A stretch of 37,307 nucleotides of DNA from Clostridium sp. Its GTDB lineage: Bacteria > Bacillota > Clostridia > Acetivibrionales > Acetivibrionaceae. The DNA lies in NCBI GenBank assembly GCA_012798835.1, contig JAAZML010000072.1, positions 1-37,307 on the forward strand, given 5' to 3'. Below the pieces are notes generated by a model. The model had not been told where the DNA came from. It made no database searches and was given only the letters and a program-made list of their open reading frames with translations. Below are positions 2,825-34,001 of this stretch, piece by piece. Positions within the stretch are counted from its first letter, which is position 1; each line of letters starts with the position of its first letter. Made by a program: the position numbers and the translations under genes.

Positions 2825-3517
2825 ATGAGAGTCCGTGATATCTTTGAACAAAAATTTAGCGAAATTCAAGGCCGAGTTCCTTTGAAGATAAACAGAGCTC
2901 CTGTTTCATTTGGGGATATATTAGATAAAACTGTAAACAGCGGCATTACCACCAATCCAATAGCTCCCAACAGTCTCAACAGCCCTGGAATAGGAAACCT
3001 GACACAAAAAAACACAAATATAAAAGCAGTGGATAAGGAAGGTAACGATAGAAGTCACGATTACAATAGAGCCCAGATTTCAAGAACTCAAAGCACATCC
3101 TATGTACCCGATGATAAGGATCAATTGACAAGGCTTATAGATCTTAATATTAAGCAAGCCTCAGAAAAATACGGCGTAAACGCAAATCTCATCAAAGCTA
3201 TTATAAGGCAGGAATCGGGCTTTAATCCAAAAGCATTATCCCATTCAGGAGCCCAGGGCCTCATGCAGCTTATGCCTGGGACGGCGGATGCACTAAATGT
3301 AAAAGATCCCTGGGATATTTCACAAAATATAGACGGGGGTACAAGATACATAAAGGATCAGCTTATAAGATTTAACGGTGATACCGTCCTTGCTCTTGCA
3401 GCGTATAATGCGGGTCCATACAACGTAATCAAATATGACGGTATACCCCCCTTTGAGGAGACGCAGAATTATGTAAAAAAAGTAATGCAGTATTACACAT
3501 TATATTCTAAAGAATAG
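2825..3517 (+). CDS. Lytic transglycosylase (SLT domain) without a visible signal peptide
   Basis: This 230-aa protein has a C-terminal SLT/lysozyme-like domain (about residues 105-225). Its motifs are [12 protein letters not shown], whose Glu is the expected catalytic acid, then [13 protein letters not shown] and [13 protein letters not shown]. Such enzymes cleave the MurNAc-GlcNAc bond of peptidoglycan and form 1,6-anhydro ends. The first 100 residues are polar and low in complexity, and no hydrophobic export signal is seen, which is unusual for a wall enzyme. The ORF-track start at 2777 is not used here; the ATG at 2825 has AAGGAGA eleven bases upstream. It follows the Cys-rich gene. Confidence 0.85.
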
Positions 3518-3661: not shown

Positions 3662-3744
3662 TAATCCACACTATCCACAGAATTGTCCACAGGTCAAACC
3701 TTTTGACTTATCTATGTTTAAGGGATATTTCCACAATATTCACA
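3662..3744 (+). promoter_or_regulatory. Cluster of DnaA-box-like sequences
   Basis: Against the consensus TTATNCACA the plus strand has TAATCCACA (3662-3670), CTATCCACA (3671-3679), TTGTCCACA (3683-3691), ATTTCCACA (3727-3735) and ATATTCACA (3736-3744). Four have one mismatch and one has two. All have the same orientation and fall in two tight groups. A perfect TTATCCACA follows at 4101-4109. This may be a DnaA-binding cluster away from oriC. No dnaA, dnaN or other origin gene is near. Confidence 0.55.
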
Positions 3745-3894
3745 CGACATGTTTCAACAACATTCGCCAAAAACAGCGTTCTTTGTTTTTGTTAATTTAT
3801 TGATCTAAACATATAAAAAAATTGCTGAATTTATGTAAAACCGCATGTGTAACGTCTTCCAATTTGCTGTATATCGGGTTAAACGCCTTAATAT

Positions 3895-3997
3895 GCCCCC
3901 AATTAAGCTAAAAAGCTTTACTCGTGGGCTAACGCAGTCAAATTTGGAGTAAGTCTTTGCAAATAGACATAAGGACAGGTTATAATCCCTGTCCCTT
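3895..3997. other. Group of inverted repeats, possible structured RNA or weak terminator
   Basis: Several pairings can be drawn. GCCC (3895) pairs with GGGC (3926-3929), enclosing AAGCT-AAAA-AGCTT (3905-3918). TTACTC (3918-3923) pairs with GAGTAA (3947-3952). AAGGACAGG (3971-3979) pairs with CCTGTCCCTT (3988-3997) with one bulge. The last hairpin lacks a clear T tract on either strand, so it is a poor terminator. No known riboswitch class was recognised. Confidence 0.3.
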
Positions 3998-4100
3998 ATA
4001 TTTGTCGCAACACCCTACATTTTACAATATTAACATTTTTCTTGATGGATCCGGAGTAAAGGGAATATTGAAAAGTTCATGCTTCTATAAAATCTAAAAG

Positions 4101-4109
4101 TTATCCACA
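4101..4109 (+). promoter_or_regulatory. Perfect DnaA box
   Basis: TTATCCACA matches the DnaA-box consensus exactly and ends six bases before the tsaD stop codon. It has the same orientation as the five imperfect boxes at 3662-3744. Confidence 0.6.
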
Positions 4110-4114
4110 GTGTT

Positions 4115-5134
4115 TCATCTTTCTCCTAATTTTAGGCTTGGTATAGCATTTAGATATAAATCGGATGTGTTTTCCTTCCCGTATTCGTAGTAAGCGGCCG
4201 AAGCCACCATGGCTGCATTATCTGTACAAAGAATGGGTCTAGGATAGTAAAGCTTTAACCCCCGATTCCGTGCCTTTGTCGAAAGTTCCTTTCTCAACAT
4301 AGAATTGGATGCAACTCCCCCGGCTAGAACAATCTTTTCTACGCCCCTTGTGTCTGCCGCTAAAATAAGATTGTCGGTTAAAACATCCACAACAGCAGCC
4401 TGAAAGCTCGCACAAACATCCTCGATCTTGTAGTTCTCTCCTTTTTGCTCCATCATGTTTAGATAATTTAAAACTGAGGTTTTAAGCCCGCTAAAGCTAA
4501 AATCAAGGCTTCCATCCTTAAAAATAACCCTAGGAAATTTAATTGCTTCCCTGTCCCCATCTTGAGAAAACTTGTCCACCAAAGGACCTCCGGGGTAGCC
4601 TAACCCCAATGCCCTTGCCACTTTATCAAAAGCTTCCCCTGCTGCGTCATCCCGTGTCTTCCCCATAATTTCAAACATGTTATAATCCTCAACGAATATA
4701 ACGTGGCTATGGCCACCCGAGACAACAAGGCAAACAAAGGGGGGCTCTAGATCTTTATGTTCGATATAGTTGGCCGCAATATGTCCTTCAATATGGTGTA
4801 CCCCTATGAGGGGCTTGCTAAGTGCAAAGGATATGGCCTTCGCCGCCGATAAACCCACTAGAAGTGCTCCTACCAGTCCTGGCCCATATGTAACCCCTAT
4901 TGCATCTACCTGTTCAAGGGTTGTATTCGCCTCCTCCAATGCTTGGTGGATAACTGGTATTATTAGCTCAACATGCTTTCTTGAAGCTATCTCCGGCACC
5001 ACCCCGCCATATTTTTTATGGAGTTCGATCTGGGATGATATAATATTAGAAAGCATCCAGCGCCCGTTTTTAACCACGGATGCGGATGTTTCATCACAAC
5101 TTGATTCAATCCCCAATATAATAGTATCTTTCAT
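4115..5134 (-). CDS. tsaD: tRNA N6-adenosine threonylcarbamoyltransferase TsaD
   Basis: This 339-aa TsaD (formerly Gcp/YgjD/Kae1) transfers the threonylcarbamoyl group from threonylcarbamoyl-AMP to A37 of ANN-reading tRNAs. It normally works in a complex with TsaB and TsaE, which are not in this window. The N-terminal [12 protein letters not shown], the metal-binding [10 protein letters not shown] (H114 and H118), the nucleotide-binding [10 protein letters not shown], the [10 protein letters not shown] block and the late CTDNAAMVA are all present. Length is normal. The ATG at 5134 has TAGGTG seven bases upstream. The enzyme making its substrate (tsaC/ywlC) is also in this window at 32874-33926. 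DnaA-box-like sequences lie just beyond its 3' end. Confidence 0.97.
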
Positions 5135-17538: not shown

Positions 17539-20500
17539 TTATTCCAACTCCCCAGTATATACTAAAATCTTTTCGATAAGCGCCAACATCTCGCCCCTTT
17601 TTATATATTTATCGTTAGCTATAGGTCTTTTATCATCGTCCATAATATATAGCCCATTTTTTTCGATAAACTCATGCTTTTCCTGCAGTTCTAAAACTTT
17701 GCCTGTCTTTAGCTCAAATAACCTTACAATCATTGTATAGGCTTCCTCTGCCGTACAATTTTTATTAGGGTCTTCCTTACCTGTCGTGGAGATAAATCCG
17801 GCTCTGGAAGCCCCTTTCATGAAATTGCTATCATATTCGAAACCCAAAACGTCCATCAAAAATTTTAACGCCTGACCCAGTGTTACATAATTATCGGGCT
17901 CAAAGAGTCTCCCAGATACGCTATTTAAATGATATAAGGAGGCAACATTGTTTATAGAGTCTTCGTATTTGTGATAATATACATCGTCAAAATAAGAATA
18001 ACCCGGCTCGCCTATAATGGTATCACCCATTTTGATCATTCCATACATGAGGCTACCTTTATTCCTATCGTGATCAATAATGTATTTTGTATTCAATTCT
18101 TCCCATGTTTTTGTTCTATTATTTAACCAAAGCCCTGTAGTTTTTCCCATTTTGTATTCATCTTTAAATTCTCTTAAAACCAAAAGAGGTCTTAGAAGTG
18201 ATGATACCGGTACAACGTTCCCACCATCTATCAAGTCAATTCCGATGCTGAATACCTCCCCCTTGAATACCATGTTTTTTGCTGAGGTATCTATATCCTT
18301 GGGGTGGGATATATTTATGATATAATCCGTCTCATATTCTTTATTTGCCGGGAAAACATAAGCATTACCAGGGAATGTGCCCGGTCTTATCGTAAAAGAA
18401 AATTTCTCCGTCTTTATTGTCAGATTCTCGGAAAGTTTGGTCAAACCCTCAAAAACCCTATTACTGATGCACAGTCTCAATTGTTCATAAGTCCCAGGTG
18501 CATCCGTAAGATCGATTGTTACATCTAATTTATTATCTTTTATGACCCTTTCGATAAAACGATCCGCATTTATACCCGTTATTTTTATATTCCATACCCC
18601 ATTTTCTACGGTATCAGCTTTATCAATAAAATCACCGGTTATTACTTCTTCAATATCAACATTCGAATCGTAATCATCACTACTGCTTTTAGTTCTGACC
18701 GATATGGTATGTGTTGCGGCAGATCGCATAGCCTTTACAGGATCATAGGCGTAGAGCCTTGCATAATAGCGGTGGTTTGATATAAGGCCTTCAATTGTAT
18801 ATTCGGAACTCTCACCCGTTTCATATTCGATGGAATCCTCAAAATCCGCATCATGTGAAATCTCTAGTATGTAACCAAAACCCTCATCTTGCATCCACTC
18901 AAAGGTAATGGTGTTTTTTGTTACAGCATCGGCGCTGTTTTTTATTCCAAACCCCTTTGGGCTTTCGGGTGCCACAATATCCAATGTACTCACCAAATAA
19001 GAATCGCTCCATTGGGAAGCAATAGCTCCGCCTGCCGGGTGTGCCTCGGCCTGCAGCCAAAAATAATAAAGCGTTCCGGGATTCAGCCCCCCAACCCTAT
19101 AGTACATAGAGTCATTAAATTCTTCTTGTGTGATCTCAAAGGTTCCGATGGACGAATTTATATTATCCTCGATTCCATACTTGATATAATAGCTATATCC
19201 AGGATTAAATTCCCACCCTAGATCTATATATACATCCCCCGGCATGCTATAGTTAAAAAACGGTACAATGGGTTTTTCATCCGGCGGTATTATAATAGGA
19301 TCCGTGGTCACTACTATAGGTACTGATGCCTCTGATACAAGTCCCATATCCGGCCGCACTGCCCTTACCCACACAACATATGCCGTATTTGCTTCCAATC
19401 CGGTTAATTTGATATCAATATTATGTTTATTGCCATCGGCGCTAAGCAGGGGATTTTCCAACGGATCGTTGGGATTAACAGAAAAATTGGTTACCCAGTC
19501 AGCCGGAATATTTTCGATACCATCGTATGACATACCCTCAACAAATTCGATACATCCTACATCTATTTTAATCTCGGGATCATAAATTACTTTTCTATAA
19601 TGCACGCCATCGATCACAATTTTTTCGGGTCCATCGTCCCCTATGGGATCGTCCCCATCCCCCTCATTTGATCCCGACTCATCTGTAGGTATGAAGGGAG
19701 GGATATCATTTTCGTCTAATTTTTCCGTTCTTATATATTCCCATTGTTTCTTTTCCGTATTAAATTTTTCATACCACATATTTTGAAGCTGGATGGTGAT
19801 AGAATCCTCGGTAATAGCATGCCTACCATCGGCATATTTTTTGACCTTTAAAGGAGGTCTTGCCGGTACTAATGGCTGGTCGATAGGCCCTTTTGGCGGT
19901 GTAACAATGACCTTGAAAGCCGAATCGGATTGATACATTATCCCCTGTAAAACATCGTCGACGTACTCTAAAAACTGCCTTTTGGCAACTATTTTAAAAT
20001 AATAAGTGGAATTGGGGGTTAGTTCTAAAACCGTATAGCTATGCCCTATAACTTTGCTGTCATAGGATATATACGCCCCCTTCTCTATGCTTAGGTTCTG
20101 GGCCCTGAGTGCCTCGGGCGGCGGGTTATCGATTAAATCCGGATCCTCTATAACCCATATATCATATACAATGTTTTCATCCATCTCCCCGTTTCCATCT
20201 AGGGGTGCTCTCCAGATTATTGTGGCCTCTTGAGGGGTAAGATTTTGATCATAACTTGCAATAACATCCCCGTTTTCACTAAGAAATTTATCCACCACTT
20301 CAGGCATCGCAGGGTAAAAAGCAATCTCCTGCTCCTTTAATGTAATTTCCTGGGATTCTATCTTTATTCCTTCATAAACATCATGGCCACCCCTCGTAAC
20401 CAATGCCTTTATAATAAAATAATTTTCTACCCCATCGGGGGGCACGGTAACAAAAAAGCTGACATCGCTTACTTCTGCCACATATTTAGGCAACTCCGAC

Positions 20501-32873: not shown

Positions 32874-33926
32874 TCAAACTCTGATAATGTTATAACCAGA
32901 GGCCTTCTCCAAGCGATTCATTATTGCAAGACCTATTCCCTGATCACTTATTGCTTCGGCAAGTATAAGTTTTACGCCAATATTGTCAAAATCCCTTAAC
33001 GCCTTAAAAAGGTTTGATGCAATGGTTCTGGGATTCTGTCGATCCCCTACAGAAATTGTTGGCGTGCCGTTGTAAAATGCACTTGTCTGCTCGGTGGAAA
33101 GTATACCAACAGCAATATTATCTGCCTTACATCCTTTTGCTAATGCCTTTATTTTTTCAACAACTTTTAAAATCTCACCCTCAACAACAATAATATCGGC
33201 CTTGGGGGAATAATGCGTATATTTCATCCCCGGTGCCCTAGGCGCAAGCCCCTCCAGATTTTTATTCCTCAGTGACTTATCCATCGCCACATCCCCAATA
33301 ACAGCAGTCAGCTCCTCAAAGGATATCCCGCCCGGTCTTAATATCATCGGGGGATCAATAGTCATATCAAGGACTGTAGACTCAACTCCAACCCTTGCAC
33401 AACCCCCATCTATTATTATGTCCACCTTGCCGTATAAATCATCCATAACATGGCTTACAGCCGTGGGACTAGGTCTACCGGATGTATTCGCACTAGGAGC
33501 GGCTATGGGTATTCCCGCTTCCTGAATTAGGGCAAGGGCAATAGGGTGGGAGGGTACTCTCAAGCCAACCGTTTGGAGTCCTGCGGTAATTATGTCGGGT
33601 ATTAGCTTAGATTTTTCAAACAAAATAGTCAAAGGACCGGGCCAAAATTTGTCCATTAAAGTTTTTGCTTTAGAAGGGATCGATAGAACTAATTTGTCAA
33701 TAGATCCCTGATCAGTTATATGTAGAATTAGGGGGTTGTCCGTTGGTCTGCCTTTTGCCCTAAAAACTTTTTCAACGGCTTTTACATCCAAGGCGTTGGC
33801 CCCCAGCCCGTAAACTGTTTCGGTTGGGAAGGCCACAACTCCCCCCATTTGCAAAACCTTAGCTGCATATTCTATCTTTTTTATATCTATGTTTTCAATT
33901 TCTATCTTGAGTATTTCAGTTTTCAT
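32874..33926 (-). CDS. ywlC: L-threonylcarbamoyladenylate synthase (Sua5/YwlC type)
   Basis: This 350-aa enzyme makes threonylcarbamoyl-AMP from threonine, bicarbonate and ATP, the first step of t6A tRNA modification. TsaD (4115-5134) uses this product. The N-terminal YrdC domain (about 1-200) contains VVAFPTETVYGLGANA, the RPTDNPLILH nucleotide loop and PSANTSGRPSPT. The C-terminal Sua5 domain (about 230-350) makes it the long form. The ORF-track TTG start lies in the ribosome site; the ATG at 33926 is seven bases after GGGGTG. Confidence 0.95.
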   Translation of the reverse strand: MKTEILKIEIENIDIKKIEYAAKVLQMGGVVAFPTETVYGLGANALDVKAVEKVFRAKGRPTDNPLILHITDQGSIDKLVLSIPSKAKTLMDKFWPGPLTILFEKSKLIPDIITAGLQTVGLRVPSHPIALALIQEAGIPIAAPSANTSGRPSPTAVSHVMDDLYGKVDIIIDGGCARVGVESTVLDMTIDPPMILRPGGISFEELTAVIGDVAMDKSLRNKNLEGLAPRAPGMKYTHYSPKADIIVVEGEILKVVEKIKALAKGCKADNIAVGILSTEQTSAFYNGTPTISVGDRQNPRTIASNLFKALRDFDNIGVKLILAEAISDQGIGLAIMNRLEKASGYNIIRV

Positions 33927-34001
33927 ATCTTTACACCCCAAATTTTACTGCTTCCCTTTATCCTAAGTAACGCATATACCAAACCTTTTGCACTTTAAAA
34001 A

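Follow-up and report, generated by a model that had tools for sequence, protein, structure and literature searches.

The window analyzed here, i.e., the whole stretch of 37,307 nt, is one contig of a 2.29 Mb MAG (171 contigs, 91% complete). In it, tsaD (gcp) and a convergent lytic transglycosylase-like gene are separated by an intergenic region of 597 nt, which houses an array of DnaA boxes and a further box close to the tsaD stop codon (Table 1). An earlier note on this DNA had described five same-orientation 9-mers spanning 83 nt, a perfect TTATCCACA beside the tsaD stop, an AT-rich stretch, and the absence of dnaA and dnaN. All of this was found to be so: the five 9-mers lie on the + strand, the perfect box occupies positions 4101-4109, the GC content is 0.23-0.25 at 3760-3849, and neither dnaA nor dnaN is present in the window. 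Missed at that time were a sixth conserved, weaker box (GTTTCAACA) and the fixed internal geometry; in all, six same-strand DnaA-box-like 9-mers lie within positions 3662-3759. A search of the window against Rfam returned no RNA family.

Table 1. Features at the 3' end of tsaD in the window, and origin regions inspected in relatives.
Feature	Position	Strand	Remarks
Lytic transglycosylase-like gene, convergent neighbor	2825-3517	+	ORF
Array box 1, TAATCCACA	3662-3670	+	99% pairwise identity between genomes
Array box 2, CTATCCACA	3671-3679	+	abuts box 1; start-to-start distance 9
Array box 3, TTGTCCACA	3683-3691	+	TTATCCACA in most relatives; start-to-start distance 12
Linker, 35 nt	3692-3726		length conserved, sequence not; mean pairwise identity 45%
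Array box 4, ATTTCCACA	3727-3735	+	two mismatches; TTTCCACA core invariant in 27-sequence alignment
Array box 5, ATATTCACA	3736-3744	+	abuts box 4
Array box 6, GTTTCAACA	3751-3759	+	weak box-like match; TTTCAACA in most order-level relatives
Terminator-like hairpin between tsaD and array core	3971-3996	-	terminator-like on + strand too
Stop-proximal DnaA box, TTATCCACA, perfect	4101-4109	+	beside tsaD stop
tsaD (gcp), anchor gene of the array	4115-5134	-	ORF, 339 aa; array lies 3' of tsaD
oriC regions inspected	L067 2397-3290; L069 1-570, 1895-2310		next to dnaA

The copy of the array in the window is partly decayed: box 3 reads TTGTCCACA, and the inverted partner of the stop-proximal box has been lost. 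In most order-level relatives, the stop-proximal box is kept 2-32 nt past the tsaD stop. As a separate observation, many relatives (L003-L031) carry past this stop an inverted pair of DnaA boxes, approximately 15-18 nt apart and capable of forming a hairpin, of which the window has one half. In a few relatives the palindrome TAGGACTNNNGTCCTA adjoins the array, but this is rare.

Within the window, taken by itself, the cluster has only mild significance. Over its whole length, the window shows no enrichment of boxes with one mismatch or fewer (53 vs. 48.6 expected). Four such boxes on one strand within 83 nt were reached in none of 100 dinucleotide shuffles of the window, in which the maximum was three, and five boxes within 83 nt, with two mismatches allowed, were reached in 38 of 100. 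The window's own genome was surveyed by pattern and model searches, and exact TTATCCACA showed no global enrichment there (31 occurrences vs. 35 for the reversed control), while a two-box pattern gave 13 matches vs. 9 in its control, pair patterns being uninformative in this genome. The window by itself thus provides weak evidence, and the weight of the case rests on the comparison with relatives.

Conservation of the array in the order and across the phylum

TsaD orthologues were found in all 40 genomes searched, the window's own genome included. In each of the 30 order-level loci (12 families, again including the own genome), the array lies 3' of tsaD and occupies the opposite strand. The start-to-start spacing of boxes 1 to 6 is 9-12-44-9-15, with 43 replacing 44 in a few loci; in three loci of one genus, box 5 is degenerate and a further box lies downstream. 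In a core of 27 sequences, the mean pairwise identity was 99, 89 and 95% for boxes 1-3, and 85, 74 and 75% for boxes 4-6, the latter values being lowered by three loci that are shifted by one base beyond the linker. The linker is 45% identical, yet its length varies by only 1-2 nt over families; drift in sequence but not in length is a mark of selection on spacing. Moreover, the transglycosylase-like neighbor was present in the flanks of 19 of 29 order-level relatives and in none of 57 phylum-level flanks, and this change of neighbor across the phylum indicates that the array is tied to the tsaD 3' end rather than to the gene beside it.

Beyond the order, a model of the array (R1), which uses sequence only and whose E-values are rough, had matches with E <= 0.001 in 176 of the 300 phylum genomes. 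Among its 30 best matches, own genome included, 27 abut TsaD. In the 25 phylum genomes that were shared with an independent TsaD search and whose best R1 match was among those listed, this match lies 8-413 nt 3' of tsaD in 22, and in 21 of these the boxes are opposite to tsaD. The only inversion among the 22 adjacent matches was observed in G096 (L220), where the array lies 3' of tsaD on the gene's own strand. In addition, 57 tsaD 3' flanks were chosen over the phylum without regard to the array. Their first 500 nt contain 196 opposite-strand vs. 33 same-strand boxes, the counts at 800-1300 nt downstream being 15 vs. 12, and at least three opposite-strand boxes were found in 35 of the 57 flanks.

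The spacing was then scored in tsaD 3' flanks with a four-box pattern (box-12-box-d-box-9-box, d free between 30 and 60, at most seven mismatches in total). This geometry was detected in 30/30 order-level, 33/57 phylum-level and 68/80 Bacillaceae loci, and in none of 1670 shuffled flanks, which bears out the suggestion in the earlier note that the position 3' of tsaD is conserved across distant Firmicutes. That note had proposed comparing the tsaD 3' region in relatives and had taken an absence of boxes there as a refutation; boxes are present, and neither this condition nor the other one it had set, similar chance clusters in many intergenic regions of the genome, led to a refutation. With at most five mismatches, d was 44 in 25 of 29 order loci, 41-44 in 18 of 19 phylum loci, and 42-43 in 50 of 58 Bacillaceae loci; over all sets, the long spacing was 42-44 in 95 of 106 matches, though 30-60 was permitted. 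The site is dispensable in some lineages: the geometry test was negative for approximately 40% of the phylum loci, and an opposite-strand box is lacking altogether in 16 of the 57 flanks.

The Bacillaceae sample comprised 80 gcp loci from named species, collected with an approximate B. subtilis TsaD query (98% to B. spizizenii); the analysis used the retrieved loci alone, not the query. Clusters 3' of gcp are general in this family, with a 12-42/43-9 unit on the strand opposite gcp. Box number and spacing vary more than in the order. The spizizenii/subtilis group has kept boxes but not the complete 12-42-9 unit. The 9-12-44-9-15 array of the order is the more regular one, many other Bacillaceae having 12-42/43-9 and the subtilis group only part of it.

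Boxes away from tsaD and at oriC

The three of the 30 best R1 matches that are not at tsaD are L161, L170 and L179. At L161 (1505-1576), a near-identical array with spacing 9-12-42 lies upstream of murC, and the arrays at L170 and L179 lie near CBS-domain transporter-like genes; gene names at these three loci are our reading of the translations. These locations suggest that the array can move as a unit. Furthermore, a three-box pattern search of 40 relatives uncovered another conserved array, which has the spacing 9-12-30 and lies upstream of hpf, the gene of a ribosome hibernation factor; in the own genome it is found at G000:C38:17886-17945 (region 17870-17945). In many order-level relatives (L052-L066), the hpf array was observed approximately 430 nt upstream of hpf, with a conserved palindrome, ACAAAACANNTGTTTTGT, alongside. 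One genome, G015, has several extra arrays (L057 3164-3483 and 6476-6528; G015:C1:4616000-4626000), 69-72 kb from dnaA, whose neighbors are dinB-like and LysM-domain-like genes.

A PF00308 search of the own MAG assembly gave one weak match only, dnaA being apparently missing from the assembly. In complete relatives, the array is 350-935 kb from dnaA, and in 11 array-bearing genomes that are complete or nearly so, this distance is 10-27% of the chromosome; the locus in relatives is hence outside oriC and not adjacent to dnaA/dnaN. Proximity to oriC was considered as evidence for the array and rejected, as tsaD is similarly placed in 5/5 genomes without it. The array shares with oriC the presence of multiple DnaA boxes and an AT-rich neighborhood, but it is not near dnaA/dnaN, and the oriC boxes by dnaA in two relatives (G002 and G009) are mostly of the TTATCAACA/TTATTAACA type rather than TTATCCACA. 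It is at tsaD and hpf that clusters of perfect TTATCCACA boxes occur. Judging from these two origins, the boxes closest to consensus are found elsewhere than in the origin, which a model of titration or restraint would predict.

Relation to known DnaA sites and proposed function

The statement in the earlier note that B. subtilis has a non-origin DnaA-box cluster by gcp proved accurate. This cluster is region 4 of an IDAP-seq study ("downstream of gcp; downstream of ydiF"), where it has 10 sites, a Kd of 0.15 uM for ATP-DnaA, and 16-fold more DNA recovered with ATP- than with ADP-DnaA at low concentration; it binds DnaA in vitro and belongs to the eight regions that were detected in vivo (PMC4447404). 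That such clusters restrain initiation, as the same note had stated, is also in agreement with reviews, which report that deleting six extra-oriC clusters in B. subtilis results in early initiation (PMC13220808, PMC5295017). These clusters have been treated as titration sites. The array described here occupies the same place 3' of tsaD/gcp and is oriC-proximal, as the B. subtilis cluster is, and it fits the description of a gcp-type cluster in having several boxes within approximately 100-200 bp, 3' of gcp/tsaD and, in relatives, away from dnaA. In Bacillus gcp loci, TTATNCACA boxes are likewise numerous and for the most part opposite in strand to gcp. It differs in having another convergent neighbor, and DnaA binding has been shown in B. 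subtilis but not here. No literature on the fixed geometry, on conservation of the gcp cluster or on clostridial DnaA boxes by tsaD was found, subscription papers being mostly outside the search. Extra-oriC DnaA-box clusters are already known as a kind; the newly seen property of the present one is the deep conservation of its geometry.

Among E. coli sites, DARS has its first core box reversed and prefers ADP-DnaA, whereas in datA the core boxes point in one direction at fixed intervals (PMC5742627). Like datA, the array is intergenic and outside oriC, with boxes in one direction and at fixed intervals, and with groups split by a spacer that in datA is bendable. ATP-DnaA is also the form on which datA acts and the one preferred by the B. 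subtilis gcp site. Unlike datA, the array has different genes around it and is not a positional homologue, ATP-DnaA hydrolysis has been shown for no Bacillota site, and the specific IHF-binding sequence of datA has no conserved counterpart in the linker. DARS1 and DARS2 resemble the array in the fixed spacing of their core boxes and in lying outside oriC, but their box I faces the other way from boxes II and III, while the six array boxes are on one strand, the stop-proximal inverted pair being separate; their preference for ADP-DnaA also differs from that of the B. subtilis orthologue. By analogy, the array and its B. subtilis orthologue may be regarded as closer to datA than to DARS, because of the uniform direction, the fixed interval, and the preference of the B. 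subtilis orthologue for ATP-DnaA.

Altogether, we hold it to be highly probable that the array is a regulatory DnaA site outside oriC, the positional orthologue of the B. subtilis gcp/ydiF cluster, of fixed geometry and acting to delay initiation. It is most likely an ATP-DnaA negative regulatory site, the clostridial orthologue of the gcp cluster, with binding and function both inferred: there are no binding or functional data for clostridial sites, and DnaA binding, a looped complex and a negative role are inferences for them. The array comprises three tandem boxes, the 35-nt linker, two tandem boxes and the weak sixth, and is joined by the box near the end of tsaD. In the proposed mechanism, each tandem group would be loaded cooperatively and head-to-tail with DnaA, probably in its ATP form; contact between the two groups across the linker would then give one complex that would hold or inactivate DnaA, with initiation at oriC delayed as a result. 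The tandem boxes are 0 or 3 nt apart, which suits head-to-tail DnaA, and the conserved 12-nt step matches the preference of E. coli DnaA for box pairs 2-3 bp apart, for which binding is lost when the gap is increased by one base pair (PMC11317965). As no IHF-like sequence is conserved in the linker, bending, if any, may rely on a protein without sequence specificity, for example HU; B. subtilis has no IHF (PMC13220808).

An alternative explanation would be a pure titration sink, in which the boxes do no more than bind up DnaA by mass action and owe their spacing merely to common descent. The B. subtilis phenotype does track the number of clusters, and one cluster placed elsewhere relieves it in part (PMC5295017); the greater variability of the Bacillaceae boxes is compatible with this too. 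However, neutral linkers would be expected to collect insertions and deletions, and the poorly conserved linker described above holds its length over families, with 42-44 recurring in Bacilli, so we consider this explanation rather doubtful. From the sequences compared, the fixed geometry appears to speak for a defined nucleoprotein complex over passive titration. The earlier note had left titration and regulation side by side, against oriC: this interpretation largely holds, the geometry exceeds simple titration, and the negative role remains inferred from B. subtilis. A lower standing still was given to a DnaA-dependent roadblock or regulator of tsaD or the convergent gene, in which bound DnaA facing tsaD would stop read-through or antisense transcription. 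The boxes lie nearly always opposite the tsaD strand and one is usually next to its stop, which speaks for it, but in the window a terminator-like hairpin precedes the array core, the array sits at a 3' end and not at a promoter, the neighboring gene changes, and arrays exist by murC and other genes (L161, L170, L179) and inverted in G096; this makes the idea improbable.

The dense boxes beside an AT-rich stretch could also recall a cryptic or accessory replication origin, which we regard as very unlikely in view of the distance to dnaA in complete relatives. The AT-rich stretch is without the long DnaA-trio-like run of two oriCs in relatives: the longest such run has 2-4 repeats, vs. 5-6 at those two, although a third oriC has only three. 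The B. subtilis clusters are regarded as inhibitory, and the use of an alternative origin was judged unlikely (PMC11019786). As to a chance cluster in an AT-rich intergenic region, the loose two-mismatch criterion is readily matched by shuffled windows, but the recurrence of place, strand and spacing in every order-level locus and across the phylum refutes it, and virtually no credence is left to it.

The regulatory DnaA site thus preferred admits a bolder version, in which Bacillota inherited from their ancestors a counterpart of datA, namely this array. It would be a nucleoprotein site whose geometry is essential to altering the nucleotide or oligomer state of DnaA, older than the split of Bacilli and Clostridia, retained 3' of tsaD and now and then relocated intact. 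This is possible but only tentative. According to a 2026 review, it is not known whether regulators of the DnaA-ADP/ATP balance exist in B. subtilis (PMC13220808). That the same row of boxes, with near-same spacing, occurs at the same place in distant Clostridia and Bacilli suggests, as far as sequence comparison can tell, an old and precisely built site that helps limit the timing of the replication start; with strand, place and spacing shared nearly to the base pair, at least one such cluster would be an old, shaped element. The tsaD and hpf arrays represent candidate DnaA regulatory sites in many anaerobes whose control of replication has not been studied.

A further observation concerns the neighboring genes. 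In the window, tsaC (the ywlC orthologue) lies at 32874-33941, with no DnaA-box cluster by it. In B. subtilis, DnaA clusters adjoin gcp (tsaD), ywlC (tsaC) and trmE (mnmE), all of which are tRNA-modification genes.
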